Assembly (NCBI GenBank): GCA_003149635.1
Contig: QCWI01000013.1
Coordinates: 54,197 to 118,196 of the forward strand
Length of the DNA: 64,000 nucleotides
DNA from: Fluviicola sp. XM-24bin1
Lineage (GTDB): Bacteria; Bacteroidota; Bacteroidia; Flavobacteriales_D; Crocinitomicaceae
Reading direction: 5' to 3'
Position 1 is the stretch's first letter. The number at the start of each line of letters is the position of its first letter. Shown here piece by piece: positions 43,656 through 64,000 of the stretch. The notes beneath the pieces were generated by a model that was not told the DNA's origin, made no database searches, and saw only the letters and a program-made list of their open reading frames with translations. The translations under genes were made by a program, and so were the position numbers.

Positions 43656-46600
43656 ATGCGCTGGAAAACCCTGCTAACACTCGCAATTCTCGGATGTGCT
43701 TATCAATTGTCGGCACAAACCTTCTCTCAAGACAGAGAAAAATTCACGAAAGAATATCAAAAACAGGTTAACGAGTTTGGATCGAAAGAGACACAGCAAA
43801 TGGTAAAAGACCAGCTGACGCCCATGTTATTGGAATCTTCAGATTTCCCGGATAAGTACTTCACCACCATGGTGAATACCTGTAATTCATTGTTGGAAAA
43901 GCGATACAAGATCGATCCTGAAGTGATTGCATACGTGTTCTCGGTCTATTCTTTCGTTGCGAAAGATTTGTCAGAAGACAGTTACGACGCTTGGCAATCC
44001 TCCATTGACAAGCTAATAGACAATAGAAACAAAGAAAAATTGAGCAAGTTTCTTGAGTTCTCTGAGGGCTTCTTTGGTGAAGGTAGAATTTCAGAATCGT
44101 CGGATTTTAGTTGGTATTATTTGGGTGGATCTTACGAGTTTGAAGTGAAAAAGAACGCGGTAGTTAAGTTTTCTGGTGGAAATCTTGTATGTCGTGTAAT
44201 TACCAATAGCAATACATCCGGCGAACGTGCAGTAGATAGCATCCGTGTCCTTGGAACCACGGGAGAATACGATCCGGCCTTGAAAAAATGGAAAGGAAAC
44301 GGAGGTAAAATTACGTGGGAACGCGTAGGATTAGATCCTGGGCAGAATTACGCCGAACTGAATCACTTCAATATTTCAATGAAACGATCGGCCTTTAACG
44401 TGGATACCGTTTCTCTTACAACCAGCTATCTGTCGAATAGCATTCAAGGCCGTTTGGCGGAAAGAGCAACGAAACGAAACGAGAAAGATCCTCAGCTGTA
44501 CCCTCAATTTTTGTCCTTCAATCAAGATGTTGTTATTGAGGATGTTGCAGAGAATGTGGATTACGTAGGTGGATTCGAGTTGAAAGGAGCAAGCTTCTAC
44601 GGAACAGGAAATCAACAAAACCCTTCAAGAATTGAAATTTCAAAGGCCGGCGCACCATTTATTTTAGCGAGAGCCGAGCAAATTGTGATCGACAAGAAGC
44701 GAATTCATATTGAGCGCGCAGAAACATCTCTTTATTTGAATACCGGGGATTCCATTTACCATCCTGGAGCCGACTTCAACTACGATTTGGAAAAGAAAGA
44801 AATCCAAATTGCTCGAACTCAGAAAGGTATTGGACAAGCCGCATTTCAAGATAAATACCACCAACTGGAAATCTACGTTCCGAAAATCATTTGGAAAGTT
44901 GACGCCGAAGAAATTCAGTTTACCTATGAGTTCGGTACCAGTCCGGAACAACGAGTGGCGCGTTTTGAGTCTAGTAAATTCTTCGATGAACGACTTTACG
45001 ATCGTTTGCAGGGATTATCCTCAGTGCACCCATTGGTAGCGATTTCAAATTACTCGTATAAATACGATGAGCCAACAATGCAGGCGGGGAAAGCCGCGTC
45101 AGCACTTGGTTTGACGAAAGAGCAAGCAGCACCAATTCTTATCCAAATCTCCAATTTAGGATTCATCAACTACGACACCGAACGCGATTTGGTGCACATC
45201 ACGGATAAGTTGACAACATTCGTGGATGCAAAGGCTGGGACTAAGGATTACGACAATATCATATTTGTTTCCGATCAACGACCGAAAACGCCTTCCCAAT
45301 TGGAAGGAAAGACGGATATGGAAATCAAGCGCGATGACTATCTGAGCTTCCTAGATTCCCTGTTTGCAGATTTGAATGAGCAGCGCCGTGGCATGACGGA
45401 ATATGCAACGATGGATTTAGCTACGCTGAAACTTAAAATTCAAGCAGTTGACCGCGTGGGAATCTCGCAGCGCAAGAATACTGCGGTAGTTCCAGAAGGA
45501 AGTGAAGTAGTGGTAAAACAAAACCGCGATTTTGATTTCGGTGGTTGGGTATTTTCTGGAAAATCGGAAATCAATACCGTAGCGGCCAACTTCACGTATG
45601 ACGATTTTACCATCCATCTTTTAGACACCAAAGAGACCGTATTTAGTGTTGATCCAATCAAAAGAGAGCATGGCCCAGGGCCAGTTCGAATGGTGAGTGA
45701 ATTACGTGGTGTGTCTGGAAAGTTGATTGTCGATCACAAAAACAATAAATCAGGAAAAAATGATCTCTTCGACATGTATCCTAAATTGGTGGTGGAGAAC
45801 AAAACGCGCATTTATTACAACGATGAGAGCATTTATCGCGGAGCATACGATAGCACGCGCTTTTACTACACGGTGGATCCATTCATTAAGGATTCTTTGC
45901 ACAAGTTCGTAAGACCCGAGCTTAAATTGCAAGGAGAATTGACTTCTGCAGGTATTTTTCCGAAGATGAGACAAGAGTTGAAGGTAATGCCGGATTACTC
46001 ATTTGGTTTCAATACCAAGGCACCAGCGGGCGGATATCCGTTCTACGAATCCGATGCGAAATATGATAATATAATCTTGCTTTCCAACAACGGATTGCAA
46101 GGAGCAGGTACTATCGATTTCATCCATTCGACCTCAAAAACACTTCCAACGTCCTTATTTGCATTCTTGCCGGACTCCACAGTCGGAGTTGTAGACTTTG
46201 TGAACAGGCCGCACGATACCGCAGTGGAATTCCCTCCGGTAAAATCGGATGAGGCGTATATCTCGTACGTTCCCAAAGAAGGGTTACTTCGTGTTCGCTC
46301 CTTACCTCAAAAAGATCTTGAGTTCTTCGAAGGAGAGTCCAAATTACGCGGAGGAATCGAAATTCGAGAAGAAGGAATGACAGGGAAAGGATTGATGGAT
46401 TTGTCCCTAGCGACGTTAATCTCAGATGATTTTTCTTTCAAACGATGGGACATCGATGCTGATACTTCTTCTTTCGATCTGAAGAATGAAAATCCAACGG
46501 ATAAGGATGAAGATCCTCTGGCCTTTAATACGGAAAATGTTTCCGCTCACGTATCCTTTAAAGATCGAGTGGGAGAATTTAATTCCAATCAAGGTGAATC

Positions 46601-48284
46601 GAAAGTGACCTTCCCTGTGAACCAGTATTTCTGTTTGATGGATAAGTTCAAGTGGTACATGGACAATGCTGAAATCGACATGGAGCGTGCTTCCGACAAA
46701 GATATTACTATCGATCAAGGGGTCGATTTGAAAGGGCCGAACTTCTATTCCATGCATCCGAAGCAGGATTCACTGCAATTCATGGCGCCGAAAGCTAAAT
46801 TCAATGTGAGTAAGAAAGTAATCTATTGTGATGAGGTAGAATACATCGATATCGCTGATGCCCGAATTTCACCGGACAGCATGAAAGTGGTGATTCGTAA
46901 GCGCGCGAAAATCGATAAGTTCGAAAACGCAACGATTGTAGCCAACTACATCACCAAGTATCACAAGTTCGATCAGGCGGAAGTAGAAATCAAAGCGAGA
47001 AGAGATTACCGAGCTTCTGGACGCTATCCGTATTACGACATCGATAGCAATGTCTATTACGTAATCATGGAGAATATCCGACCGGATACGGGGTATCAAA
47101 CTACTGCTTCAGGGGTCGTGAAACAAGAGGACAACTTCAAATTATCTCCTCAGTTTGACTACTACGGAGACATGTCCATTGCAGCAGCGAACCCGCTCAT
47201 CACCTTCAAAGGAGCGACGCGAATCAACCACGGATGTGAGAAGTTCGATCGAAATTGGATGGCGTTTACGTCAGAAATCGACCCTAAGAACATCCAGATT
47301 CCGGTGAGCGAGAAAATGGAGAACTTGGATGGAGGATCTATCTCCGCAGGAATTGTCTGGCGCGATTCACCATCAACGGACAGTCTGGAATTGTATCCAA
47401 CTTTCCTGTCCGCACTCGTCGATCCGAACGATCCAATTGTGATGACGGCAAGCGGATATTTGCAGTACAATCCAGATGCGAAAGAATTCCAAATTGGTTC
47501 CAAAGACAAACTCATCAACCGACTCGAAGTTGGAAACTTCATTGCGTTGCATACCGAGAGTTGTTCGATGAATGGAGATGGTGAAGTGAAGTTAGGAATG
47601 GATTTCGGAGATGCTGAATTGGACGCAGTTGGAGTGGTGAACTACAATCAATCTACGGGAGAGACATCCATGAATATCACGGCGCGAATCAAAATGGCGA
47701 TCGACAAAGGAATTATGGAGGATGTGGCGAAACGCATTAATGGTTTGGAAGGTTTGAAACCAGCTGATTTCAATTCAACGACTTTGGAACAAGCCATCCG
47801 CACTTGGGAAGACACGAAAACAGCTGATGATTTCAAAGCGAAATTCTTGGCAGACGGAGAAGTAAAGCGTGTTCCGAAAGGATTGAACTACTCCATGACG
47901 ATCAGTGGAATTCGTATGAGTTCGTACTCCGGTTTCCAAACGCACGGATTGATTACCAACGTTCAAAGTGCAGTTTTGGTTAATATGTATGGCGAACCTG
48001 TAATGAAATATGTACCTTTCCGCGCGTTTTTCCAGCAGATTTATTCTGGTGGGGGAGGCGATGCTTTCAATTTGCTGATCGATATTCCGGGTGGAAACGA
48101 TTACTACATGCATTACAGTATGTCGAAGAAAGACGGAACTTTATCCATCCTGACCGGCGATGCTGAATTCAGCGGAGCGATCAATGAAATGAAAGACGAT
48201 AAACGAAAGACCAAAAACTTTAAGTTCCAATCAACGAGTGATTCTTTTGATAAGACCTCATTCCTTGATTTGTTCGTACAATGA
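43656..48284 (+). CDS. giant (1542 aa) secreted protein of unknown function, beta-rich
   Basis: Signal peptide MRWKTLLTLAILGCAYQLSAQ; uninterrupted ORF; no catalytic motif recognised. Confidence 0.85.
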   Translation: MRWKTLLTLAILGCAYQLSAQTFSQDREKFTKEYQKQVNEFGSKETQQMVKDQLTPMLLESSDFPDKYFTTMVNTCNSLLEKRYKIDPEVIAYVFSVYSFVAKDLSEDSYDAWQSSIDKLIDNRNKEKLSKFLEFSEGFFGEGRISESSDFSWYYLGGSYEFEVKKNAVVKFSGGNLVCRVITNSNTSGERAVDSIRVLGTTGEYDPALKKWKGNGGKITWERVGLDPGQNYAELNHFNISMKRSAFNVDTVSLTTSYLSNSIQGRLAERATKRNEKDPQLYPQFLSFNQDVVIEDVAENVDYVGGFELKGASFYGTGNQQNPSRIEISKAGAPFILARAEQIVIDKKRIHIERAETSLYLNTGDSIYHPGADFNYDLEKKEIQIARTQKGIGQAAFQDKYHQLEIYVPKIIWKVDAEEIQFTYEFGTSPEQRVARFESSKFFDERLYDRLQGLSSVHPLVAISNYSYKYDEPTMQAGKAASALGLTKEQAAPILIQISNLGFINYDTERDLVHITDKLTTFVDAKAGTKDYDNIIFVSDQRPKTPSQLEGKTDMEIKRDDYLSFLDSLFADLNEQRRGMTEYATMDLATLKLKIQAVDRVGISQRKNTAVVPEGSEVVVKQNRDFDFGGWVFSGKSEINTVAANFTYDDFTIHLLDTKETVFSVDPIKREHGPGPVRMVSELRGVSGKLIVDHKNNKSGKNDLFDMYPKLVVENKTRIYYNDESIYRGAYDSTRFYYTVDPFIKDSLHKFVRPELKLQGELTSAGIFPKMRQELKVMPDYSFGFNTKAPAGGYPFYESDAKYDNIILLSNNGLQGAGTIDFIHSTSKTLPTSLFAFLPDSTVGVVDFVNRPHDTAVEFPPVKSDEAYISYVPKEGLLRVRSLPQKDLEFFEGESKLRGGIEIREEGMTGKGLMDLSLATLISDDFSFKRWDIDADTSSFDLKNENPTDKDEDPLAFNTENVSAHVSFKDRVGEFNSNQGESKVTFPVNQYFCLMDKFKWYMDNAEIDMERASDKDITIDQGVDLKGPNFYSMHPKQDSLQFMAPKAKFNVSKKVIYCDEVEYIDIADARISPDSMKVVIRKRAKIDKFENATIVANYITKYHKFDQAEVEIKARRDYRASGRYPYYDIDSNVYYVIMENIRPDTGYQTTASGVVKQEDNFKLSPQFDYYGDMSIAAANPLITFKGATRINHGCEKFDRNWMAFTSEIDPKNIQIPVSEKMENLDGGSISAGIVWRDSPSTDSLELYPTFLSALVDPNDPIVMTASGYLQYNPDAKEFQIGSKDKLINRLEVGNFIALHTESCSMNGDGEVKLGMDFGDAELDAVGVVNYNQSTGETSMNITARIKMAIDKGIMEDVAKRINGLEGLKPADFNSTTLEQAIRTWEDTKTADDFKAKFLADGEVKRVPKGLNYSMTISGIRMSSYSGFQTHGLITNVQSAVLVNMYGEPVMKYVPFRAFFQQIYSGGGGDAFNLLIDIPGGNDYYMHYSMSKKDGTLSILTGDAEFSGAINEMKDDKRKTKNFKFQSTSDSFDKTSFLDLFVQ

Positions 48285-48907
48285 TGATTGAATATTTACT
48301 TTTCGCGGTTGCAGCGTATTGTCTCGGGTCAATCCCTACTGCCGTTTGGTTGGGGAAAGTAAGGTACGGTATAGACGTTCGCGAACACGGAAGTAAAAAC
48401 GCCGGGGCAACCAATACGTTCCGCGTATTGGGAAAGAAACCGGGCATTATTGTTTTGGCCATTGATATTTCCAAAGGATTTTCTGCGGTTTTTTTACCAT
48501 TCTTAGTTGGTATGGGAGACTACGGAAGCGAAGAACTGATCAATCTTCAGTTGGTATGTGCGCTTTGTGCCGTTGTAGGACACGTGTTACCTGTATTCGC
48601 AGGTTTTAGGGGCGGTAAGGGCGTGGCGACATCGCTAGGAGTTATTATTGGAATTCATCCGCCTGCCGCGGCTATTTGTTTGGGAATCTTCTTAATCGTC
48701 TTTATTTCGTCCAATTTTGTGTCATTGGGAGCCATGATGGCAGCTTGTTCTTTTCCCGTAATTTTAGTGACGCTTTTTGGAGTTCGATCTCCCTGGCTGA
48801 TAGCATTTAGCATCGTTTTATCCGCAGCGGTGATATATGCGCACAAAAAGAACATCGGTCGCTTGCTGAGAGGAGAGGAAAACAAAATGAACCTTTTTAA
48901 GAAATAA
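48281..48907 (+). CDS. plsY: glycerol-3-phosphate acyltransferase PlsY
   Basis: YCLGSIPTAVWLGK, REHGSKNAGATNTFRVLGKKPG, FRGGKGVATSLG. Confidence 0.95.
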   Translation: MMIEYLLFAVAAYCLGSIPTAVWLGKVRYGIDVREHGSKNAGATNTFRVLGKKPGIIVLAIDISKGFSAVFLPFLVGMGDYGSEELINLQLVCALCAVVGHVLPVFAGFRGGKGVATSLGVIIGIHPPAAAICLGIFLIVFISSNFVSLGAMMAACSFPVILVTLFGVRSPWLIAFSIVLSAAVIYAHKKNIGRLLRGEENKMNLFKK

Positions 48908-48948: not shown

Positions 48949-51900
48949 TTGAGAGGGTATAAACATATCATATTTGTCCTCTTTGTGTTACTGAATGCCA
49001 GTGTTTTTGGGCAACAAGTAACAGAAGAACAGAAGGAGCAGGCCAACGAATTGTTCGAGAAAGAACAGTACGTTGAAGCAACCCCTTTGTTCCTACAAAT
49101 CCTATCTCTAGAACCCACTGTAGCGGATTGGAACTTCAAATATGGGGCGTGTCTTTTGTACAATGCAGGAGAGAAAAAAGACGCAATAAGATACCTCAAA
49201 TACGGTGTAAATACCGAAGGTACTGACAGTCGTGTTTTCTATTTCTACGGACGAGCACTCCATCTGAATTATCAATTTTCGGAAGCCAAGAAATTCTACC
49301 AACGATACTTATCAGAGCGAGAAAAAGCGGATAAGCGATACCCTGTGGAGCGGGAAATCCGCATGTGTAACAACGGACAACAGCTCCTCACGACTTTCAC
49401 GGATATCATCGTCACGGACAAAGTTCAGATTTCAGAAACCAAATTCTACGACATTTATTCGAGTTCGCGAACGATTCAAGGTTCGATTACCGTGAACCGC
49501 GATTTTCAATCCAAATTGGATAAAAAGAAAGGACACATTCCCATTGTACACTATGGCCCGGATGCGAAAATGATCTTTTATAGCAGTTGGGGAGATGATG
49601 AGAGTACCGGGAAAGATCTCTATCAAAGAATTCGACTTCCAGATAATTCTTGGGGAAAGCCACAACTGGTAAGAGGGAATGTGAATACCAACGAGGACGA
49701 GGACTATCCTTTCTTGCATAGGAGCGGGCAAGTCTTGTACTTCAGCTCGAAAGGGCACAATTCCATGGGAGGATACGATGTTTTCATGAGCCGTTACAAT
49801 CCCGATACGCAATCTTTCGGCCCACCTGAGAACGTCGATTTTGCAATCAGTTCTCCAGACGACGATTTATTCTACGTAGTAGATTCTAGCTTTACGAATG
49901 CTTATTTTGCTTCGGCCAGATCCAGCCAAAAGGACATGTTGCACGTGTACAAAGTGAAAGTAGTGCGTGTTCCCATTCAGGATGTGATTCTGATGGGGAA
50001 TTTCATCTCGGAGATCCAACCTGAAGACCAAAAAATAAAACTGAGCATTTTAAAGAACTCTAATGGAGATGAATTGGTCAAAATGCCTGTTGCTGCTGCC
50101 AACGGAGGTCGTTATTCTTATGTGTTCCCGCAAGGTGGGAAATACGATTATCTGGTAGAGGTCGAAGGTTCAGGAGACGAATTCCGATTCACCATCGATA
50201 TTCCCTATCTAGATGATTTCCGTCCACTTAAGCAGGAAATCATCCATACTACTGAGAACGGGAATGAAATAATTCGAATCATTAACAAGTTCGATGAAAG
50301 TGTAGAAGGTGCCGAGGCGATTATCGCTGAAGTGATCCGAAAGAAATCCGAGCTGAATGTAAATGTCAACGAGTTCGATCTGGATGCTATTGAGAATCAG
50401 CAAAATTTGGATGCTGTATTGGCCGACCTCGGATTTGACAACATGAGTTTGCGTGAAGTCTCGGGTCAATTGGAGGAACTAACTAACTCTACGGCCGACA
50501 ATGAGGAGATTACTGAGCGCGTTACATCCAACGTTTCCTCTGAATTGATTGCAAAAACAGAACGCATCAAGGAGCTGGATCAAATGGAGAAAGAATTGCG
50601 TGCCTCTGCTGAGAAAGCTACTGATCCCGTGACGCAACACAAGTTATTGACTGAAGCGAGTCAGAAACAACGAGAGAAGGAACAGTTGATCAAGCAAGTC
50701 CAAGGGTTGGAAGCTTTAATTGCCGATGTCAATGAAATTGGACAGAACGGCGCAGATCCTCAAAAGATCAAGCAAGTAGCGGAGCAGTTCAATGAATTGC
50801 GCGACTCCGACGAACAGAAAGCGCTAGAATACTTGGTTTCAGAAAAGGACGTGATCGATCAGGCGAAGTCAGGGTCACCAAATCAAATTAAAGATACATA
50901 CACGCAAGAGATCTTGCAGACTCGCGCAGATCTCCGTGAAGCAGACGACCGCAGAACGGAGTACAAAAATTCGGTAGAGAAGTTAAAAGCACGCGTGGTT
51001 TCCTTGGAGCGCGAGCGTGAAGGTGCCAAGCGTAAAGATCAAGAACGAATTGATACGGAAATTGAGGAGATCAAACAAGATATTGCGAAACGCGAAAAGG
51101 AAATCGAACGACTCAATGATCTTATCACGAAGAAAGAATTGGAATTAGATGCTACTGAGGATCGATTGGCAAGTTTCCAAAATGCAATGTCTACCGAAGA
51201 GAAATCGGAGGTGAATCCAGACGACGTTGTTGAGGCGACACAAGCAGTCGAAGCAATTTCTGCGGAAGAAGAGTTTAATTACGACAATGCGCTTGCGACC
51301 TTGGAGACCGAACATCCTGAAATCAATGGTGGTGATCCAATCGTAGATTATGCAGCAGAATTGGATCAGCAATATGAGGAAGATAAAGCTACGATTCAAA
51401 ACGATGCGTCTCTGACACCATTGGAGCAAGCGTCAAGATTGGTAGAGAATAATGAAGCGGCGATGGAAGCTGTCGACAACCAATTGGCAGAAGTCCAGCA
51501 AAAGCTAGAACAGGGCGAGGATGAACGATTGCGCGAGCAAGAAGCTGTTTTGCAGGAACAAAAGAATGAATTAGAGACTGAGAATGCTTCATTGGTTGCG
51601 GAAGAAGAACGATTGAAAGAGCAAACACCGGATGCAGCATTATCAAAAGAAGATGTGTTGGCGGAAGTTGCTCCTGCTCTCTTGCAAGAACTTGAAGAAG
51701 CCCAAGGGAACTCTAACCTATCAGAGCTTGAACAACTTCAAGAAGAGCAGCGCATTCGTGAGAATTTAAGCGTAGCCTTAGAAGCCGAAAACAACAATTT
51801 GAGTGAAGTGCTGCAGCAAAACCCAGATGATGAATCAGCGAAAGCCAAGCAAGAACTTGTTCGTCAGTTGATCTCGGAGAACGACGCTTCAATTGCCGAC

Positions 51901-54900
51901 GTTGAGAGTGCTATTGTTGCTATTGCCACTCCGGTACGTGTTGACATTACAGCCTTGGACCTTATTGCTGATGTCAATGGTAATTACCAAGAATCCAAAG
52001 GCGAGATTTTATCTGGTGATGGAACTCCACTAGAACAAGAAAAGGCACTGCTTGAGCTCAACGAAACCTTAATAGAGGATTTACAAGAGGAAGCTCAGAA
52101 TGTTTCAACGGCCTTGGAGGGAAATCCAAACGATGCTGAATTACAAGCGAAGAACAAAGCACTGAATGAAGCAATTGCTATTACCGAGACGGAAATAGCT
52201 GAGAACAATCAAAATATTACTGCTCTATCGACTGCGCCAACTCCAACAGTAACGGTTACGGCAGAAGAAATGCTTTCGGAGGTCGCTCCAAATTATGAGC
52301 AGGATCGCGCAGCAATTCAATCTGGTGAAGGTACACCTAAGGAGAAAGAGGAAGCTTTGAAAACGTTGGAGGAAGAAACGCTAGCTGATCTCCAAAAGGA
52401 GCAGGCGAAGTGGCAGAAACGTGCTGATCGCGACCCTGAGAACAAAGAAGCGAAAGCAAAAGCCGAAGCTCTGAATCAAAGTATTGCACAGCGTGAAAAG
52501 GAAATTGCAGCGATCGATAATCGAATTGCTGTATTGGATACAGCTTCTCCGCAGGCAACCGTTTCTGTTGAGACCATTATGGCGGAAGTGGCACCTGAAG
52601 TCAATAATGAATTGGCGGAAATTGATGGCTCCGATGAATCAGCTTCCGTGAAAGCAAGAAAAAAGGCAGGTGTAATTGCCGGAGTGTTGGAAACGCTCAC
52701 AAAAGAATTAGAAGCTGTCGATAAGGATTTGAATCGAAATCCTGATGATGCAGAATTAACAGCAAGAAAAGTGGCTATAGAATCGGCAATTCATGAACAG
52801 CAACAAGTATTGGAGCAGTTGCAAGAGACTGCAGTTAGTCAATTGACAGCTGAGGAGAAGGAAAATGAGGTTTCAGAAATACTTCCTTCATACACAGCAG
52901 GAGCAACAAGCGACAATCCAGAACAACAAATTCAAGCTGAAAAAGATTTGCAGGCTGCCCTTGAGAAAGAAATCGCTGAGAAGGAAAAATCGCTCGGCCA
53001 ACGTTATTCAGTTTCGGTAGCCATCGAAAAAGCCATTCAGGAGAAACTGTTGGAAGAAAGTCGTCAGCGAGAAGCGAATATCGATACGGATACTTCCAGT
53101 CCTTCTGCCGCTTCTGAATTCATTGCCAGCATTCGCGAAGAGAGTGGAGAAGAAGTAACAATGGCGTTGGCGGAAGAAGCTACTGATTTGGAATCTCTGC
53201 AAGCGCAGGAAGAAACGTTGGCGGCTTACGAATCGTATTTGGATCAGAAGATTGAAGAGCAGGAAACGTTAGTGGCTTCCGAACCAACGAAAGAAAACGA
53301 AGATGCTTTGTCTTGGTTGGTGGAAGAGCAGGAACGTGTGGCAAGAAAACGTCGTTCTATTAGCGTTTCTATTGGCGAATTGGAACAAGTTGCCGTAACA
53401 ACTCCAGGTGACAATCAGGAATTGAATGAACTCAATCAAGAAGAGCAACGCATTCGTCAAGCACAAGATGCGGAAGATCTAACCAATGCCGAAAGAAAGC
53501 AATTGGATCGTGAATTGCGCGAAGTTACGGAACAACGATTCGCGATTGAAAATGAAGAGGTATCCAATGCGTTGGTAGTGTCTAAGGGAACTTCGGAACA
53601 GATGCAAAGTGACTTAGAAGAGCGAGTAGATTCCGGCAGCGAAATTGTACAACGCACCTTGGAACATGCCGAAACCGAAGAAAAAGCGATTTCGGAAATA
53701 GAGGCGGAAGCAGCCACTGCGGATTCGGAAGCGGAAAGAAATTACCTTTTAAATGAGGCGAAAAAGCGTCGTGATGCATTGAACAATGATCTGAACGATG
53801 CCGTCGTAGCTTCCGAACTGGCCGCTATCGAAGAACAATACGATATTACTACCATGTCTCGTCCAGAGTTGGAGAAAAAGCGTCGTTCTTATACTATTCA
53901 ATTGGGTGAGATTTCTCGCGAGATTGAAGAAGTCAACGAAGAAATGTCTGAGGCGAAGCGTAAAGACCTTCCGGCATTAGAAACGAAACGAGAAGAGTTG
54001 ATCACTCGCAAAGAGCAAATTCAGGCGAACTTGGATCGTGTAAACGAACAACTTGGTAAGGTTGAAGAAACGCCAACTGCTTTGAACGAAGGCGCTTTAG
54101 AAGAAGAGATTTCGTTCAGCGAAGAGCGAGAGATTGCAGCCTCCGAGGAATACGAAGAATACCAGCAAACAGCTGTGGAGGCGTTGACTGTTGCAAACGA
54201 AATTCGTAATTTAGAGGAGGAATTGGGCGAGAAACGAATCGAACTACAACGCGCTGTGCAAAACAGAGAATCAGATGCTGTGATTCAAGCGAAAGCAGCA
54301 GAAATTCAAGCGTTGGAAGAAGAAATGGATCGCTTGGAGATCGAATTAACACAGAAGAAGTTTGTAGCCGATCAAGCCCTTCCTGAAAATGAAAACGAAG
54401 CAATGAAGATGCAGAATTTGGTAGCTCGCGGAATTCAACCGTTGAAGGTAACAGCAGTGGCGGCTGCCTTGATTCAAATGCCAACGACTGGCTTTGCTAT
54501 CAACACGGAATCTGAACGTCCGAACGATGGAGCCATCGAAATTCCCGTAGGTGTTACGAGTCCTCAAGGATTGGTGTACCGAGTGCAGGTCGGAGCCTTT
54601 GCGCGTCCTCTGCGTCCAGATGTCTTCAAAGAATTCAACCCGGTTTCAGGAGAGAAAATCGAAGGAACGAACATCACGCGTTACATGGCTGGATATTTCT
54701 CTAGCAGTGAAACGGTGGTAGATGCTCGTCAGCAAATCAGAAATTTGGGTTATTCAGATGCCTTTATTGTTGCGTATTGTAACGGTGAACGCATCACGTT
54801 CGGTGAAGCACGTCGACGAGAAGCAGCCGGAATTTGTGTTCCGAAACGTGCTGAAGAGATCATGATTGAAGTAGCTGAAAACACGGCTATAAATCTAAAT

Positions 54901-55803
54901 CTTCCTGTGAGTTCTGAACCGGAGAAATTGCCGGAATGGGCGTATGCACAATCACCTGGAGCAACAGATTCAGATCCAATTGAGAAAATGGAAGGATTGT
55001 TCTTTACCGTTCAAATTGGGGTGTTCAACCGAGCAGTTTCGGATTCAGATGTAAAAAACCTACCGGAAATTTCTACGTTCCGATTGCCAAATGGGCAAAT
55101 TCGCTACAACACAGGTAAGTTTGATTCGGCGGAAGAAGCATTGCCACGTCAAGATTTGGCGCGAAGAAGTGGGATCAAAGGAGCCTTCATCGTAGCTTAC
55201 TACAAAGGAAAACGTATTTCGATTGGAAACGCACGAAGAATACTTTTGGAATACGGCCCATCTGTCCTTCAGTCTCGTAAAGAAATCGAACCAGATGTTG
55301 TCGAAACACCTATCGTTCGTTCGGACAGCGTAAGACATGATGTGATCGAAATTACGCCAATGGAGGAGTGGGAGAAGCGCGTTCAGATTGTCACAGAGAA
55401 AACGTTTGAGGAATTCCCAAGAGATATTTTGAATCGATACAATGCCGAAGGTTCGTTCTACTATGATGAGAAGGACAAACGCGTGAAATCTACGATCTAC
55501 GAAAACGAAGATTACTTGCCGAACCTGTACAACTTCAAGGACGACGTAGATACGGTTTACCTTGAGGAAGGACTCCTGGACGATCAGAAAATGGAGACCA
55601 TTTACTTTGTCTTCACCGATTCATTGGTTCCTGGGGCCTTTATGGACTGGATGCTTCGTTGTAATTACAGAAGAGCGATCAATCGCACGTTCAGAGGCAC
55701 AGAAGTTCGTATCTTTGGAGTAGCACCAGAGGAAATAGATAAGATGATTGAACGAATCCGTTTGTTCGGTGTAGAACCAGAAAAGATCAAAGAAGAAGAG
55801 TAA
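48949..55803 (+). CDS. giant (2284 aa) periplasmic/outer-membrane-associated protein: TPR + PD40 beta-propeller head, long repetitive coiled coil, two C-terminal SPOR-like domains
   Basis: TTG start with signal peptide (MRGYKHIIFVLFVLLNASVFGQ); TPR-like region, PD40-like strands (VHYGPDAKMIFYSSWGDDESTGKDLYQRIRLPDNSWGKPQLV; YPFLHRSGQVLYFSSKGHNSMGGYDVFMSRY); C-terminal YRVQVGAFARPLRPDVF...ARQQIRNLGYSDAFIVAYCNGERI and FTVQIGVFNRAVSDSDV...GIKGAFIVAYYKGKRI. Confidence 0.88.
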   Translation: MRGYKHIIFVLFVLLNASVFGQQVTEEQKEQANELFEKEQYVEATPLFLQILSLEPTVADWNFKYGACLLYNAGEKKDAIRYLKYGVNTEGTDSRVFYFYGRALHLNYQFSEAKKFYQRYLSEREKADKRYPVEREIRMCNNGQQLLTTFTDIIVTDKVQISETKFYDIYSSSRTIQGSITVNRDFQSKLDKKKGHIPIVHYGPDAKMIFYSSWGDDESTGKDLYQRIRLPDNSWGKPQLVRGNVNTNEDEDYPFLHRSGQVLYFSSKGHNSMGGYDVFMSRYNPDTQSFGPPENVDFAISSPDDDLFYVVDSSFTNAYFASARSSQKDMLHVYKVKVVRVPIQDVILMGNFISEIQPEDQKIKLSILKNSNGDELVKMPVAAANGGRYSYVFPQGGKYDYLVEVEGSGDEFRFTIDIPYLDDFRPLKQEIIHTTENGNEIIRIINKFDESVEGAEAIIAEVIRKKSELNVNVNEFDLDAIENQQNLDAVLADLGFDNMSLREVSGQLEELTNSTADNEEITERVTSNVSSELIAKTERIKELDQMEKELRASAEKATDPVTQHKLLTEASQKQREKEQLIKQVQGLEALIADVNEIGQNGADPQKIKQVAEQFNELRDSDEQKALEYLVSEKDVIDQAKSGSPNQIKDTYTQEILQTRADLREADDRRTEYKNSVEKLKARVVSLEREREGAKRKDQERIDTEIEEIKQDIAKREKEIERLNDLITKKELELDATEDRLASFQNAMSTEEKSEVNPDDVVEATQAVEAISAEEEFNYDNALATLETEHPEINGGDPIVDYAAELDQQYEEDKATIQNDASLTPLEQASRLVENNEAAMEAVDNQLAEVQQKLEQGEDERLREQEAVLQEQKNELETENASLVAEEERLKEQTPDAALSKEDVLAEVAPALLQELEEAQGNSNLSELEQLQEEQRIRENLSVALEAENNNLSEVLQQNPDDESAKAKQELVRQLISENDASIADVESAIVAIATPVRVDITALDLIADVNGNYQESKGEILSGDGTPLEQEKALLELNETLIEDLQEEAQNVSTALEGNPNDAELQAKNKALNEAIAITETEIAENNQNITALSTAPTPTVTVTAEEMLSEVAPNYEQDRAAIQSGEGTPKEKEEALKTLEEETLADLQKEQAKWQKRADRDPENKEAKAKAEALNQSIAQREKEIAAIDNRIAVLDTASPQATVSVETIMAEVAPEVNNELAEIDGSDESASVKARKKAGVIAGVLETLTKELEAVDKDLNRNPDDAELTARKVAIESAIHEQQQVLEQLQETAVSQLTAEEKENEVSEILPSYTAGATSDNPEQQIQAEKDLQAALEKEIAEKEKSLGQRYSVSVAIEKAIQEKLLEESRQREANIDTDTSSPSAASEFIASIREESGEEVTMALAEEATDLESLQAQEETLAAYESYLDQKIEEQETLVASEPTKENEDALSWLVEEQERVARKRRSISVSIGELEQVAVTTPGDNQELNELNQEEQRIRQAQDAEDLTNAERKQLDRELREVTEQRFAIENEEVSNALVVSKGTSEQMQSDLEERVDSGSEIVQRTLEHAETEEKAISEIEAEAATADSEAERNYLLNEAKKRRDALNNDLNDAVVASELAAIEEQYDITTMSRPELEKKRRSYTIQLGEISREIEEVNEEMSEAKRKDLPALETKREELITRKEQIQANLDRVNEQLGKVEETPTALNEGALEEEISFSEEREIAASEEYEEYQQTAVEALTVANEIRNLEEELGEKRIELQRAVQNRESDAVIQAKAAEIQALEEEMDRLEIELTQKKFVADQALPENENEAMKMQNLVARGIQPLKVTAVAAALIQMPTTGFAINTESERPNDGAIEIPVGVTSPQGLVYRVQVGAFARPLRPDVFKEFNPVSGEKIEGTNITRYMAGYFSSSETVVDARQQIRNLGYSDAFIVAYCNGERITFGEARRREAAGICVPKRAEEIMIEVAENTAINLNLPVSSEPEKLPEWAYAQSPGATDSDPIEKMEGLFFTVQIGVFNRAVSDSDVKNLPEISTFRLPNGQIRYNTGKFDSAEEALPRQDLARRSGIKGAFIVAYYKGKRISIGNARRILLEYGPSVLQSRKEIEPDVVETPIVRSDSVRHDVIEITPMEEWEKRVQIVTEKTFEEFPRDILNRYNAEGSFYYDEKDKRVKSTIYENEDYLPNLYNFKDDVDTVYLEEGLLDDQKMETIYFVFTDSLVPGAFMDWMLRCNYRRAINRTFRGTEVRIFGVAPEEIDKMIERIRLFGVEPEKIKEEE
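51340..53170 (+). repeat. six about 102-aa coiled-coil hairpin repeats inside the giant protein
   Basis: Aligned (A/S)E(V/L/I)xP-like anchors begin at 51355, 51661, 51967, 52276, 52582, 52873 (spacing 306, 306, 309, 306, 291 bp); most units carry an internal NPDD/NPND/DPEN turn. Confidence 0.85.
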
Positions 55804-55814
55804 GAAGGTTAAAA

Positions 55815-56102
55815 ATGATGATTATGAGAAACACGGATACAGATACGCTGGAACAGGTGGATGTAGTAGAAGAGACGGTTACTTCTAAGAATCTTATCGT
55901 TTTTAATGATGACGTAAACACCTTCGATCATGTGATCGATTCTTTGATTAAAGTTTGCAAGCACGATCCTATCCAAGCCGAGCAATGCACTTGGTTGGTT
56001 CATTACAAAGGGAAGTGCGATGTGAAATCGGGAGATTACGACACGCTGGAGCCGATGTGCACAGGACTTTTAGATCGTGGTATCTCCGCAGAAATTCACT
56101 AG
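55815..56102 (+). CDS. clpS: ATP-dependent Clp protease adaptor ClpS
   Basis: NLIVFNDDVNTFDHVIDSLIKVCKHDPIQAEQCTWLVHYKGKCDVKSG. Confidence 0.92.
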   Translation: MMIMRNTDTDTLEQVDVVEETVTSKNLIVFNDDVNTFDHVIDSLIKVCKHDPIQAEQCTWLVHYKGKCDVKSGDYDTLEPMCTGLLDRGISAEIH

Positions 56103-57292: not shown

Positions 57293-59674
57293 ATGACTCG
57301 ATTACAAATCAAAACTTTTACTTCCGGAGCGCCGGTATTAGCAGCGATTACCTTTCTATTTTTTCTTTGCACATCCAATGTTTCAGCGCAAATTCAGTAC
57401 ACTGGAATTGTTCAGGATAACACGGTCACGTCGTTTTTAGCGTCCTATAATCCATCTTCGATTGTAGATTCGAAGACCAAGTTCTCAGCTAGCTTTCACA
57501 CCAATTTCGCGCGCATCAGCAATTTTGCATCGAACAATTATTTGGTGTACGGACAAGAGATTAAGTACGTTGAGCCAAGAAATCCGGGCTACGTAAGAAG
57601 TTCGACAAATGTTGATATCGTCAACTTGAAGTACGAGTTCGATCATAAGAACGCCGGTGCCTATTCATTCCGACTACGCACCTTGCGAAACCTCGAAGGT
57701 TTACCTATTCGTTGGGCGCACAATGCAGCTACTGGATATGGTGAGAATTTATTCGGATCAGCGGATGGAATGACAGGAATGGGAATGAATCGTGTGAGTT
57801 ACACAGAGCACAACTTGACGTATGCCCGAACGATTTTTGATCGTGATATTTCTTTACTAAAAGCCGGTATTTCCTTAAAAATCTTGAATGGAATCGATGC
57901 TTCTTACTTTAACGTGAATGGTGGAAGCTATGATTTCTTGCAGCAGAATACAGAAATTGTAGAATTGACCGATTTGGACGCGAATTTGGTGCGAAGCGAA
58001 AGCAACAATCAGCAGTTTTATCAACATCGAGGATTGGCATTTGACCTAGGAGTTACCTACGAATACCGTCCTGATTTCGAGAAGCAGTACTATGAAATGG
58101 ACGGGGCGAAGCGCAATGTCCGTTACGATATCAATAAGTACAAGTGGAAAGTTTCCGCTTCTATTACAGATCTCGGATTTTTGCGATTCACTAAAGATTC
58201 ATTGTCATCATACAATATGACGAACCCTTCAATTCAGGCGAATTCAGGGAACTTTGTTGATCTCGGTGGTTTGGATCCAGGCTCACTGATCGCAGGGCCA
58301 TTTGATTACGTGGAAGACAATATTGGAACCTTTAGTACGCAGGATACATCTGTAATCCCGCAACGATTTGGAATGGGACTTCCAACGGCTTTTCACGGAA
58401 GTTTTGATATGAATATCCTACGACCGTTCCTTTACTTCAGCTATAACATTTCCCTCCCGCTTCATTTTAAAAATGATGTGACTCAAATGAGAGGATTCTT
58501 TATTCATACCATAACGCCGCGCATCGAAAAGCAAAATTGGTCCATCCTTTTACCAATCTCTCAATTGGGGAATGGAACGGCGACCGTCGGTGTAGCAGGA
58601 AGATTCAATTGGAAACAATTCACAGTGTTCCTCGGATCGAACAACATGGCGCTTTTATACGGTCAGAAGTCTTCACGAAGCAGAAGTTTCTACGGAGGAA
58701 TTGCCTATAACGTATTCTACAAAGTTCCGGACGATGCGGATGGAGATAAAATTTCCGATCCAAAAGATGATTGTCCTTACGATCCGGGATTGGCGGCATT
58801 CAATGGATGTCCTGATACAGACGGCGATGGAATCATCGACAAGGAAGATTTGTGTATTTATGATCCGGGGCCGAGAAGTACGAATGGATGTCCTGATACT
58901 GATGGTGATGGCGTTATCGACATGAACGATATGTGTCCTGAAATTCCCGGACTTGGAATCCACTACGGTTGTCCGGATAGAGATAAAGACGGTGTAATCG
59001 ACGCTGCGGATAGATGTCCTGATGTACCGGGAATTGAGTTGAACAATGGGTGTCCGTTGGATGATCAGCGTTGTTGTACGGACGAAGACGGCGATGGCGT
59101 TTTGAATGAATTCGATAAATGTCCAACAGTTCCAGGATCAGTGTACAACTCAGGATGTCCGATCGATTCAACGAATATCAACGACATCAACCTTCAAGAA
59201 GAGAAGGAGCAAGTAGATGCGAACAATACGGCGGTTCAAATTGAAGATAGCGCAAGTGTCGATTTGAGTGAGCAATTCATCACTTCGAAGAGCGAGTTGG
59301 ATTCCTTGTTAGAAGGGAAAAACATTCTGAAAGATCTGCAAGTATTCTTCGATGTAGACGAAGCGACATTGAAAACGGAAGAGCGTCTTAAATTGGACAA
59401 AGCATTCCGAGTATTACCAGGAAACGAGCGATATGCGGTGATTTTGATTGGTCATACGGATCGTGATGGGTCATTGGATTACAATCTTCAGTTATCGAAA
59501 CGACGCGCGGAGACCGTGCAACGAAAGTTAAAGGAATTCTACAAGTTCCCGGGTGAAATCTCTGTGTACTATTATGGAGAAGCGAAATCCATTCACAGTG
59601 GTGATTACACGGATGAACTGAAAGCCGCGGATCGACGTGTAGATGTTAAGTTGATTCTATTGCCAAGAGATTAG
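57293..59674 (+). CDS. outer-membrane beta-barrel protein with TSP3 calcium-binding repeats and C-terminal OmpA domain
   Basis: Signal peptide; barrel-like N-terminal region; DADGDKISDPKDDCPYDPG...; C-terminal VFFDVDEATLKTEERLKLDKAFRVL...ILIGHTDRDGSLDYNLQLSKRRAETV. Confidence 0.9.
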   Translation: MTRLQIKTFTSGAPVLAAITFLFFLCTSNVSAQIQYTGIVQDNTVTSFLASYNPSSIVDSKTKFSASFHTNFARISNFASNNYLVYGQEIKYVEPRNPGYVRSSTNVDIVNLKYEFDHKNAGAYSFRLRTLRNLEGLPIRWAHNAATGYGENLFGSADGMTGMGMNRVSYTEHNLTYARTIFDRDISLLKAGISLKILNGIDASYFNVNGGSYDFLQQNTEIVELTDLDANLVRSESNNQQFYQHRGLAFDLGVTYEYRPDFEKQYYEMDGAKRNVRYDINKYKWKVSASITDLGFLRFTKDSLSSYNMTNPSIQANSGNFVDLGGLDPGSLIAGPFDYVEDNIGTFSTQDTSVIPQRFGMGLPTAFHGSFDMNILRPFLYFSYNISLPLHFKNDVTQMRGFFIHTITPRIEKQNWSILLPISQLGNGTATVGVAGRFNWKQFTVFLGSNNMALLYGQKSSRSRSFYGGIAYNVFYKVPDDADGDKISDPKDDCPYDPGLAAFNGCPDTDGDGIIDKEDLCIYDPGPRSTNGCPDTDGDGVIDMNDMCPEIPGLGIHYGCPDRDKDGVIDAADRCPDVPGIELNNGCPLDDQRCCTDEDGDGVLNEFDKCPTVPGSVYNSGCPIDSTNINDINLQEEKEQVDANNTAVQIEDSASVDLSEQFITSKSELDSLLEGKNILKDLQVFFDVDEATLKTEERLKLDKAFRVLPGNERYAVILIGHTDRDGSLDYNLQLSKRRAETVQRKLKEFYKFPGEISVYYYGEAKSIHSGDYTDELKAADRRVDVKLILLPRD
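58735..59160 (+). repeat. thrombospondin type 3 (TSP3) repeats
   Basis: Successive DxDGDGIID...D.C....PG....NGCP units. Confidence 0.9.
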
Positions 59675-59693
59675 AAACAGAGAAGACGACAGT

Positions 59694-61469
59694 ATGATTC
59701 ACAAGTTGAAATATCTGAGAACTTCCTTGCTTCTGGTGTTCGTTTTGTTCGGAGTGAGCAAGACGGTGTCGGCCCAATATATGGAGTTCGAATGGTCGGA
59801 TGAATACCGTTTCACCAACAGAAAAACGGGCTTTTTCTCTGAATATCTAGGCGCAGGGTACACTTCGATTTATCTCTTGCAACGAAATATCTCGAAGTCG
59901 AAATCCTACGACAATGCGAAGTTGAAAATCGTAGCGTTAAATAAGAATTCTTTAGTAGAAGACACGGTGTTGGCTCTGAAAGGATTTCCTGAGAACGAAG
60001 GGGATACAGAGTTAGATGATTTGGATTATCTAACTTCCATCGTAACGGAAGATGGAATCTTCGTGTTCTGGAGAAAGTATGAATACACCGATTCGACCCG
60101 AGAAGAACAAGTGTATGCGCAGTCCTTCCGATCCACGCTCAAGCCGGCGTTATCACTTCGAAAGGTTTATGGATTCACCTACGATGTCGAATTCGACGCG
60201 TCTATTTTTGATTCTACCAGAAGTGTAATTGCGGCAAATCCAGGTTTGTACCGAATTGTTGTTGGAACGGAAACCTATGAAGACGGTGAGGTAGCATTCA
60301 AATACGTAACCTTGGACTCCAAGTTGAATGCTTCATCCGAGAAATCATTTCCGTTGCCTCAGACCTTTAAAAAGTTTCCTAAAGAATTAACCTCTGAATA
60401 TGAAGTTCGTGATAATGGCATGTTGTATGCGAAATCCGTCGTAAAATATACTGTTGAGGAGTTGTTTGGTAAGGGAATCGATCATCCAAGAACGTATCAT
60501 GCTTTGACTGTTGCAGACATTTCTTCGGGGAAACATTTCCTATTGAACATTCGAGGAGAGAATAAAACCATCACTGATTATTCTTATCAGGACGTCGGTG
60601 GAAAGACGCGTGTACTTGGCTTCTATGGCGATTTAGACAAAGATACCACAGGAATTGATGATCAAGGTGTCTTCTACGCGGATATTGACAACGAAACCGT
60701 TTCGTCGGAAGGCTTGAAGTATCTCTATTTTGAGCGTTCAATTAAGAATCGAATCATGTCGAAGAAAGATCGAAGAAAAAGGGAAGGAGATCTTACAGCC
60801 GAAGAAATACTGAATACACGATTCGATATCGAACATATTGAGACGATGGAGGATAGCAGCCTCATAGTATTCTTCACGATGGAATATAATACCGAGGAAA
60901 AGACAAGTCGAAGCGATTTGAATGGTAGAAATGTGTATTCAATGAAATACGGCTTCAAGAAAAGCAATGTATTAGCCCTAAGACTGGCAGACAACGGAGA
61001 AGTTCTCTGGGCGCGCAAGATTGAACGCAAAGCTTCTTATAAAGGAGAAGACGCAGACGATATTCAGGTAGTATATCAGTATGGGAAGTTCGTCGTGATG
61101 TTCGGAAATGAGAATCCTAAGTTGAAATCGCATCGCAAGAAAAGACTGCGCCACCTCAAGAAGGAAATTGAATATGCAACGTTTGATCCGAACTCGGGTA
61201 GGGCCAAAATCTATGAGGTGGAAATCAACGAGCCCAGAACAATGCTCAAAGATTTACGTTATATAGATCCAAGAACAGCTGTGGCTGTAGACGGTAAATT
61301 CTATTTCCATCAAATTCATGTACGCCAAAATCCGATTTGGACGGCCGCGAATGTTCTTTTCGTTCCGACTTTGTACTACACTATCCTTACAGGAAATACG
61401 AAACTTGGAAAAGGCGATTTCACAGTCATGAAAGTGATGCCGGGAAAGAAGCCGAAACGCAAACGTTAA
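59694..61469 (+). CDS. hypothetical secreted protein, adjacent to OmpA/TSP3 gene
   Basis: Signal peptide region (TSLLLVFVLFGVSKTVSAQ); 591-aa open frame 20 bp after the OmpA gene. Confidence 0.75.
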   Translation: MIHKLKYLRTSLLLVFVLFGVSKTVSAQYMEFEWSDEYRFTNRKTGFFSEYLGAGYTSIYLLQRNISKSKSYDNAKLKIVALNKNSLVEDTVLALKGFPENEGDTELDDLDYLTSIVTEDGIFVFWRKYEYTDSTREEQVYAQSFRSTLKPALSLRKVYGFTYDVEFDASIFDSTRSVIAANPGLYRIVVGTETYEDGEVAFKYVTLDSKLNASSEKSFPLPQTFKKFPKELTSEYEVRDNGMLYAKSVVKYTVEELFGKGIDHPRTYHALTVADISSGKHFLLNIRGENKTITDYSYQDVGGKTRVLGFYGDLDKDTTGIDDQGVFYADIDNETVSSEGLKYLYFERSIKNRIMSKKDRRKREGDLTAEEILNTRFDIEHIETMEDSSLIVFFTMEYNTEEKTSRSDLNGRNVYSMKYGFKKSNVLALRLADNGEVLWARKIERKASYKGEDADDIQVVYQYGKFVVMFGNENPKLKSHRKKRLRHLKKEIEYATFDPNSGRAKIYEVEINEPRTMLKDLRYIDPRTAVAVDGKFYFHQIHVRQNPIWTAANVLFVPTLYYTILTGNTKLGKGDFTVMKVMPGKKPKRKR

Positions 61470-61849
61470 TCCGACCTCAATCGTAGGCAAATTTCAGACT
61501 TTTACTCCGTCTAGGTTTTCCCAAAATTACTACCGAAAAAGTTGGTAATAGTATCGTAATGGAATAATTTCTTCATGGAACGAAAAAGACACGTCCAATC
61601 CAAAATCGAAATTTAATCGTTGATTTTTTCCGCTTCATCGATTGCAAATGAGGAGTTATCGATGTCGTTAATGTGTATAGAATTGCTATAAGTCTTTATT
61701 TATAAGGGTTTTATCGATAAATGTTATAATTCACTTTAAGTTATAAAATTGAAATATTCATTATATATGCATAAATATTAGTTCAAACATATGATTTAGA
61801 TAAGCAAAGTAGTAATCCACCAACCTTGTATGGAATGCTTCGTATTTTA

Positions 61850-61857
61850 TATATTTG
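61850..61857 (+). promoter_or_regulatory. Bacteroidota-type -7 element (TATATTTG) upstream of the SprB-repeat gene
   Basis: TATATTTG with TTG at 61826-61828, about 35 bp before the ATG at 61892. Confidence 0.5.
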
Positions 61858-61891
61858 TATTTTATATACAGACCAAGCAAGACTACCTCCT

Positions 61892-64000
61892 ATGGTTACT
61901 ACTACAACCAACCAGCGGGAGGCGATAATGAATCGTATTCCGCTCTCCATTCTTCAGTCTCGGATTTTGTTCGGACTTTCGATCATGCTCCTTTGTATGT
62001 TGCCTTTCACGACGAATGCTCAAGGTTTCACCACAAGTTATGGTAACTTCGCACCGTGTAGCGGGCCCATCGAACTATATGTTTTCGATTTTACTTCTAC
62101 GGGCTCCAATACAATCACACAAGCAGGAATTAACATTCAAAACTCTGATAACGAGTGTTGCACAGAGCCATCAAATGCAGGATGCCTATTCTTTGATGTT
62201 TATGTCGATCCAGGCGCTACGGGTGTTTCTTTCTCTCAGACAGGAGCTGGAGGAAACGTAGATATTTACTACGAAAACTGTGATAGTATTTATGGTGCCA
62301 ATGAAGATATTTGTTTGGATGCCCAATTTGCCTATACCGATCCTTCAGGGAATGTGTACCACCGATTTATGTTTTGTCGTTCAGGACAAACGACTTATGA
62401 CTTTACTTTTACTCAAATTGTACCTACGTTTCCAGACGATATTGGAGTAACGGAAGGATGTACGATCGATTTGTCTGTTCAGGATTTAGATCCTACTTCA
62501 GTGGTTTGGACTTCTATTGCACCTGGGGTTCCAGGGCAATGGGATGGTTTATTAGATTGTACGACGGGTTGTTTGGATGTTGTACTTACTCCAATTCCTG
62601 GGGCTTCTCCTCCCACAGTCAGTTATCAAGTTTGTGGGGACCTAGCTGGAGCCTGTAACACTCAAACGTTTTGTGATACGGTAACGGTTACTATTTATCC
62701 GGATTTATTCGCAGGTGCAGGCCCTGACTTGGCTTTTTGCGAAGGGTCATTTATTCCAGTAACGTCTACTGGAACGGCCATTGGAGGGACACCGCCGTTT
62801 ACGTATGAATGGGTTGGATTCGCCGGAGCCGGTAATGGATTTACGTACACAACTGTCGATCCCTCAAGCACTGCAACCGTCGTTTTCAACCAACCAGGTC
62901 AATACGAATTAACAATTACGGATGCGAATAACTGTGCGATTGCGGTAGATACGGTTGAGGTATTCACCTTTGCTACATCCATTGAGGCATTCATCACCAC
63001 TACACCAAACCCTTACACGATTTGTACCGATCCTACGCCTACAATTACTTTGGAGGGTTATGTGACAGAAACGTACATGGGAGTTTGGACTTCTTTGAAC
63101 GGGGGAACATTCTCAAACGATACGATTGATGGAACTGCAACAGCTCCTTTAAATACACCACAAACAGTAACGTGGACGCCAATCCCAGGAACAACTGGAT
63201 TGGTTACGCTTATTCTAACTCCGATTAATAACGTTGGTTGTCCAATCACGCCGGATACCATTATTATTGACCTAACTCAGTTTACGTCCACACTCACTTT
63301 AACACCGACCAACATTGATTGTAATGGAGCGAACAATGGTGCGATTGACTTAACGGTTACTGCCGGAGCGCCTCCATATACGACTTCTTCCTACACATGG
63401 AGTACTTCCAATGGAAGCGGTTTGGTCGTTGGAAACGAAGATCAAACAGGGTTAAGTCCGGGAGATTATCAAGTAGTTGCCACGGATCAAAACGGATGTG
63501 TTGATTCTATTTCAGCGACCATAACGGAGCCACCATTATTGACAGGTACAATTGCCGGAGACGCATTATTATGTAATGGCGATGCGGATGGAAATGTCAC
63601 CGGAACCGTTAGTGGAGGAGTGGCACCTTATAATGTTGTTTTGGATCAGACCGGAGCGAATTTGAATGTGGCATTTAACGGTGGTTCGTATGATTTTACC
63701 GGGTTAAGTGCGGCAATATCAGGAGGTTTTGATCAATATACGGTAACTGTTACCGATGCGAATAACTGTGTGATCAACCTTGGGCCAGTAAATATGGTTG
63801 AGCCGTCACCAATCACCATTACTATCAACGGCGACGCGCTTCTTTGTAATGGCGATGCAGACGGAAACGTAACTGGAACGATCAGTGGTGGAACAGCACC
63901 TTACATCATTACTCTTAACGAAACTGGAGCAACTATCAATGTTGCAAACGATGGCGATGCATATGATTTCTCAGGACTAAGTGCTGCGATCTCCGGTGGA
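61892..64000 (+). CDS. large SprB-repeat/PKD-like surface adhesin (3' end outside window)
   Basis: Frame from ATG 61892 (or 61928) appears open to the last base (703 codons): signal peptide MNRIPLSILQSRILFGLSIMLLCMLPFTTNAQ, then PKD/Ig-like segments and SprB units (CNGANNGAIDLTVTAGAPPYT, DQNGCVDSISATITEPP). Not in the ORF track because there is no stop inside the window. Confidence 0.9.
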   Translation, partial: MVTTTTNQREAIMNRIPLSILQSRILFGLSIMLLCMLPFTTNAQGFTTSYGNFAPCSGPIELYVFDFTSTGSNTITQAGINIQNSDNECCTEPSNAGCLFFDVYVDPGATGVSFSQTGAGGNVDIYYENCDSIYGANEDICLDAQFAYTDPSGNVYHRFMFCRSGQTTYDFTFTQIVPTFPDDIGVTEGCTIDLSVQDLDPTSVVWTSIAPGVPGQWDGLLDCTTGCLDVVLTPIPGASPPTVSYQVCGDLAGACNTQTFCDTVTVTIYPDLFAGAGPDLAFCEGSFIPVTSTGTAIGGTPPFTYEWVGFAGAGNGFTYTTVDPSSTATVVFNQPGQYELTITDANNCAIAVDTVEVFTFATSIEAFITTTPNPYTICTDPTPTITLEGYVTETYMGVWTSLNGGTFSNDTIDGTATAPLNTPQTVTWTPIPGTTGLVTLILTPINNVGCPITPDTIIIDLTQFTSTLTLTPTNIDCNGANNGAIDLTVTAGAPPYTTSSYTWSTSNGSGLVVGNEDQTGLSPGDYQVVATDQNGCVDSISATITEPPLLTGTIAGDALLCNGDADGNVTGTVSGGVAPYNVVLDQTGANLNVAFNGGSYDFTGLSAAISGGFDQYTVTVTDANNCVINLGPVNMVEPSPITITINGDALLCNGDADGNVTGTISGGTAPYIITLNETGATINVANDGDAYDFSGLSAAISGG
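63557..64000 (+). repeat. SprB-type tandem repeat, 273-bp period
   Basis: GDALLCNGDADGNVTGTVSGGVAPY at 63557 and GDALLCNGDADGNVTGTISGGTAPY at 63830; second unit cut by the window end. Confidence 0.88.

Follow-up and report, generated by a model that had tools for sequence, protein, structure and literature searches.

How might a protein work that carries a head like that of a known outer membrane-peptidoglycan linker but ends in a probable wall-binding tail of another kind? The question is raised by one gene in the window analyzed here (the whole 64-kb stretch of DNA, part of a 3.63-Mb genome), which encodes a protein of 2284 residues, hereafter referred to as the giant. A first-pass annotation, made from the sequence without database searches, described a PorE-like head and two SPOR-like modules where an OmpA anchor would be expected, in an architecture that it did not recognize.

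PorE (PG1058), a component of the type IX secretion system (T9SS) of Porphyromonas gingivalis, is regarded as a link between the outer membrane and peptidoglycan (PMC5053529, PMC9143113), and loss of CHU_0125 impairs outer-membrane integrity (PMC5891637). Like the giant, PorE consists of a signal peptide, TPR, beta-propeller, and CRD followed by a peptidoglycan-binding module, with PorP presumably held by its TPR or propeller. CHU_0125 is a Pal-like TPR-PD40-OmpA protein that likewise has a likely role in outer membrane-peptidoglycan linkage. The OmpA domain binds stem peptides. In a search of mainly openly readable literature, we found no paper pairing a SPOR domain with PD40- or PorE-type proteins or with Bacteroidota T9SS proteins, and no prior description of the giant, which is seemingly undescribed.

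We estimate a probability of roughly 0.55 that the giant is a periplasmic tether or scaffold, docked at the outer membrane, that binds denuded (division-site) peptidoglycan and is associated with division or wall remodeling. Below, we present the evidence for this reading and weigh three others against it.

Architecture of the protein

The open reading frame proposed in the first-pass annotation proved exact in coordinates and length, and the domain order read from its translation (TPR-like, PD40-like, and CRD-like parts, a helical region, and two SPOR-like modules; Table 1) was borne out by Pfam, NCBIfam, and AF2. The TTG start is credible, since near relatives begin with TTG, ATG, or GTG at the equivalent position. 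A signal peptide is present, as annotated, and inspection of the sequence revealed no lipobox, the first Cys lying no earlier than residue 68; we propose that the giant is exported by Sec and is not lipidated. Two nearly invariant Cys residues in the TPR domain, together with the absence of Cys from the arm, fit an oxidizing compartment.

Table 1. Features of the giant and its neighboring genes; positions refer to the window
Feature	Position	Strand	Residues	Basis or remark
1542-aa exported protein	43656..48284	+		upstream neighbor
plsY-like gene	48281..48907	+		upstream neighbor; named from sequence
Giant gene	48949..55803	+	1-2284	TTG start
Signal peptide	48949..49014	+	1-22	...ASVFGQ; signal-peptidase-I type, read from sequence
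TPR domain	49015..49392	+	23-148	Pfam in most relatives; PDB profile matches; fold match; AF2 helices
PD40-type beta-propeller	49399..49983	+	151-345	PD40 in relatives; NCBIfam CHU_0125 match; AF2 strands
CRD-like beta domain	49984..50298	+	346-450	CarboxypepD_reg in relatives; AF2 strands
Helical arm	50314..54471	+	456-1841	~50 helices, 83% helix (AF2)
Five detectable ~102-residue helical-hairpin repeats	51352..52827	+	802-881, 902-986, 1004-1088, 1107-1190, 1210-1293	iterated HMM search; AF2 helix pairs
SPOR module 1	54562..54813	+	1872-1955	Q1880, F1884, R1911; Pfam, AF2 fold, conservation, identity to nearest relative
SPOR module 2	54985..55233	+	2013-2095	Q2022, R2052; hhalign to module 1, AF2, conservation
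C-terminal alpha/beta domain	55378..55800	+	2144-2284	AF2; confined to close relatives
clpS	55815..56102	+		11 bp downstream of the giant; Pfam ClpS

A domain scan of the whole protein gave few above-threshold matches (SPOR at residues 1903-1941, with PD40 and TPR weak), and PHROGs gave none. Scans of 25 relatives firmed up the weak matches, with TPR, PD40, and CarboxypepD_reg examined in the heads and SPOR in the tails. The AF2 models (mean pLDDT 85.7 and 84.7, pTM about 0.5) can be trusted for individual domains, not for their mutual arrangement.

In the head, TPR is weak by Pfam in the giant itself but significant in most of the relatives scanned; Foldseek matches it to TPR structures with a TM of about 0.75 (of target), a profile of the head also finds TPR structures in PDB, and AF2 places the helices at residues 25-148. 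PD40 reaches an E-value of 0.0018 in the giant and is matched in 24 of the 25 relatives (best 1.2e-11). The NCBIfam model of CHU_0125 (NF053607) matches the propeller at residues 202-338 (E 2.8e-21), albeit with 75.7 bits against a curated cut-off of 620. The AF2 propeller, with about three full blades and partial strands over some 195 residues, looks smaller than that of PorE, which is five-bladed and spans 267. The beta domain modeled at 346-446 corresponds to the annotated CRD-like domain, and CarboxypepD_reg is found there in 3 of 25 relatives. The giant thus has TPR, beta-propeller, and CRD in the PorE order, and calling the head PorE-like was justified by this order, by PD40, and by the CHU_0125-type propeller.

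What follows the head is different. The domain scan found no OmpA domain (PF00691) anywhere in the giant, as the annotation had implied; judged by sequence, a PorE-type head is used here with a different wall anchor. The giant also differs from PorE in lacking a lipobox, in its 1,400-residue helical arm and two SPOR domains, and in its locus, and from CHU_0125 in having SPOR and the arm without OmpA. In another genome (G044), a 519-aa TPR-propeller-CRD protein without OmpA (L160:1041-2600) has a gliding-type adhesin on one side and a PorP/SprF-like gene on the other.

The arm had been described as a Lys/Glu-rich coiled coil of well over 1000 residues, a description that did not hold. Its composition is rich in Glu, Ala, Leu, and Gln (E 17.9%, K only 5.8%), with 335 acidic versus 152 basic residues. 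The helix boundaries in AF2 argue against a continuous coiled-coil stalk: the arm is made up of about 50 separate helices with a mean of 23 and a maximum of 56 residues. From ~800 to 1300, AF2 and HMM analysis resolve ~102-residue units, each consisting of two short and two 32-residue helices, with at least five such hairpin repeats at residues 802-1293. An HMM built from four units of the giant detects between 1 and 14 units in 44 members of a set of 90 giants; within this subset, the protein lengthens by ~90 residues per unit (r 0.83). A continuous helix of the arm's length would, by simple arithmetic, measure about 200 nm, which the periplasm could hold only lengthwise. Given the modeled hairpins, a compact or jointed shape is more likely than such a rod.

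A tail that may read denuded glycan

The SPOR family (PF05036) matches module 1 of the giant at 28.7 bits (gathering cut-off 21) and the tails of 24 out of 25 relatives at E<=0.01 (best 1.3e-11), and hhalign identifies the two modules as homologous (99.9%, E 8.7e-32), so both annotated SPOR-like modules are confirmed. AF2 (pLDDT about 90) shows the SPOR strands and second helix in each; of the first helix, module 1 retains 4 residues and module 2 none. A Foldseek search with the whole tail model returned no significant match. The C-terminal domain was considered as a third SPOR and rejected in this genus, as a profile of close relatives is not detectably SPOR; a true third SPOR does occupy this position in some other lineages.

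SPOR domains bind only glycan stripped of stem peptides; in RlpA, Q270 reads NAM/NAG, and R309 (FtsN R285) is a second glycan-reading residue (PMC6895207). With equivalence set by motif spacing (QxxxF, RxxxG), the Q270-equivalent Gln is present in both modules of all 42 relatives compared, the R309-equivalent Arg in 39/42 for module 1 and 42/42 for module 2, and an aromatic residue at the RlpA F274 position in all 42; the R311 equivalent is not basic. The conservation of these residues makes peptidoglycan binding, as first suggested, the likely role of the tail. We predict that both modules bind denuded glycan, although the near loss of helix 1 and the non-basic R311 equivalent mean that binding is not assured.

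Enzymes that produce denuded glycan are the amidases. An Amidase_3 protein of the same genome (an N-acetylmuramoyl-L-alanine amidase of 378 aa; L150:2336-3472) ends in a single SPOR of the giant's subtype (hhalign 97.6%, E 3.7e-12), whereas the genome's canonical, HU-type SPOR protein is only weakly similar. The giant shares with FtsN, DamX, DedD, RlpA, and CwlC a probable SPOR fold and the conserved Gln and Arg for denuded glycan; it differs from them in being a very large exported protein that lacks an enzyme domain and has tandem modules with a reduced first helix, together with a propeller head.

Relative to the nearest relative, the SPOR modules (95% identity for module 1, 89% for module 2; dN/dS ~0.03) and the propeller (90%) are the most conserved parts of the giant, and the arm (75%) is the least conserved apart from the signal peptide.

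Distribution and genomic context

The giant belongs to a widespread ortholog family. The 89 complete relatives (including at least six duplicate contigs) range from 1,638 to 3,197 aa, and 88 carry two or three SPOR domains (two in 76, three in 12), with one detectable in the remaining protein. At E<=1e-60, the head is matched in 148 of 197 genomes from the order and in 70 of 145 from the class, across many families; many short ORFs among these matches lie close to a contig edge or directly at it. When the phylum was sampled evenly (149 genomes), matches as strong as those typical of giants came only from the genome analyzed here and a single further one. Fluviicola chungangensis, Crocinitomix catalasitica, and Brumimicrobium salinarum are among the carriers with a species name. 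A tree built from the shared propeller-CRD region places 29 giants in a single clade (support 0.97), separate from 16 proteins that are short or of OmpA type.

Three relatives deserve separate mention. One of the 70 class genomes (G427) has a 477-aa protein (L157:2143-3576) with a head and a short helical tail but no SPOR, possibly an ancestral or reduced form; this genome lacks SprA and the 1542-aa protein. In genome G001, the frame ends early at 1720 aa (L062:7462-12624, L025) and the tail match contains two in-frame TAA codons, probably marking a decayed copy. The third lies on a chromosome titled Glaciecola amylolytica (CP034120.1, L075), a gammaproteobacterial name, in a typical Bacteroidota context; the title is probably wrong.

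The gene order tpiA-prmA-(1542-aa exported protein)-plsY-giant-clpS is conserved, with tpiA, prmA, and plsY named from sequence rather than by family search. Upstream, 64 loci contain the 1542-aa gene in 54 cases, prmA in 53, tpiA in 49, and plsY in 37; downstream, clpS follows in 60 of the 84 loci with room for it, often overlapping or no more than tens of bases away. The 1542-aa neighbor matches no Pfam family and no PDB profile, and its family members are mostly about 1,450-1,600 aa. Further downstream in the window are a DUF5723 + TSP3 + OmpA protein and a 591-aa protein without a Pfam match (57293-61469), then an SprB-repeat protein, a probable T9SS adhesin, that runs off the window end (61826-64000). 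The DUF5723-OmpA and 591-aa genes were dismissed as linked partners, as no homologues of theirs lie close to the giant in relatives.

Discussion

In the favored explanation, the TPR-propeller-CRD head would, by analogy with PorE, dock on an outer-membrane or outer membrane-associated partner; the arm of helical hairpins would span or run along the periplasm, its length evolving as ~102-residue repeats are gained and lost; and the tandem SPOR modules would bind glycan denuded by amidases, chiefly at the septum. The giant would thereby accumulate where cells divide and there keep the outer membrane in position or report where it lies. The change of anchor favors this tether: with OmpA, which binds stem peptides, replaced by SPOR, which binds stripped glycan, the protein should be anchored where amidases have processed the wall, mainly at the septum. 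The conserved glycan-reading residues, the SPOR subtype in common with the amidase, the strong conservation of propeller and SPOR modules, and the likely linker role of PorE and CHU_0125 also speak for it. Several points count against it. The first SPOR helix is nearly lost in the model, the R311 equivalent is not basic, and the Foldseek search with the tail gave nothing significant. There is no PorP-like gene beside the giant, and half of the class does without it, so it does not meet a universal envelope need.

An auxiliary role in the T9SS or in gliding, in which the head would attach to a T9SS component, such as a PorP/SprF-like barrel, and the tail would use SPOR to anchor or place the machinery where the wall grows or divides, seems to us unlikely, though it is the strongest of the alternatives. 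The PorE-like head would suit it, and the genome has SprA, a PorP/SprF protein, and the SprB-repeat protein ~6 kb downstream. All but two head-bearing genomes of the class sample also have SprA; however, SprA is present in 139/145 class genomes and is so nearly universal that its co-occurrence is uninformative on T9SS dependence, and the giant is missing from about half of the class genomes that have SprA. The locus itself is one of plsY and clpS rather than T9SS genes, and the DUF5723-OmpA cluster is not syntenic. Moreover, the genome also encodes five conventional PorE-like relatives, one of them with PorP/SprF and a type B adhesin next to it. The coexistence of TPR-propeller-OmpA proteins, the separate clade of giant heads, the position away from PorP-like genes, and the SprA-positive genomes without a giant all speak against reading the giant as a stand-in for PorE. 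Involvement in the T9SS is possible, but the data do not need it.

Less probable still is that the giant regulates or scaffolds cell-wall hydrolysis, SPOR bringing it to denuded glycan and the head or arm recruiting or activating amidases with no membrane tethering. Recruitment is a typical function of TPR heads and helical arms, and the SPOR subtype is found on the genome's own amidase; against this, the domain scan found no LytM-type activator domain in the giant, and the relatives of its head (PorE, CHU_0125) are links between outer membrane and wall. We consider it least probable that the giant belongs to an envelope-biogenesis module, positioning the 1542-aa neighbor relative to the wall (perhaps in lipid or outer-membrane-protein assembly, possibly with PlsY): upstream linkage, short intergenic distances, and the presence of the 1542-aa protein in 69/70 head-bearing class genomes versus 124/145 overall (hypergeometric 2.8e-7, phylogeny ignored) point that way, but the neighbor also occurs in ~55 class genomes without the giant, and the linkage may be merely inherited.

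Conclusions

The giant combines a PorE-type head with another, predicted wall anchor. Returning to the tether, we suggest much more tentatively that in many Bacteroidota it may connect the outer membrane with septal wall processed by amidases, acting through SPOR in a partly Tol-Pal-like manner, with its reach tuned by repeat number. To our knowledge, how the outer membrane is held and constricted during Bacteroidota division has been little studied. A seemingly undescribed protein of 2,000-3,000 residues that has wall-reading SPOR domains and is conserved at a constant locus in many families would offer a direct genetic handle on this process.
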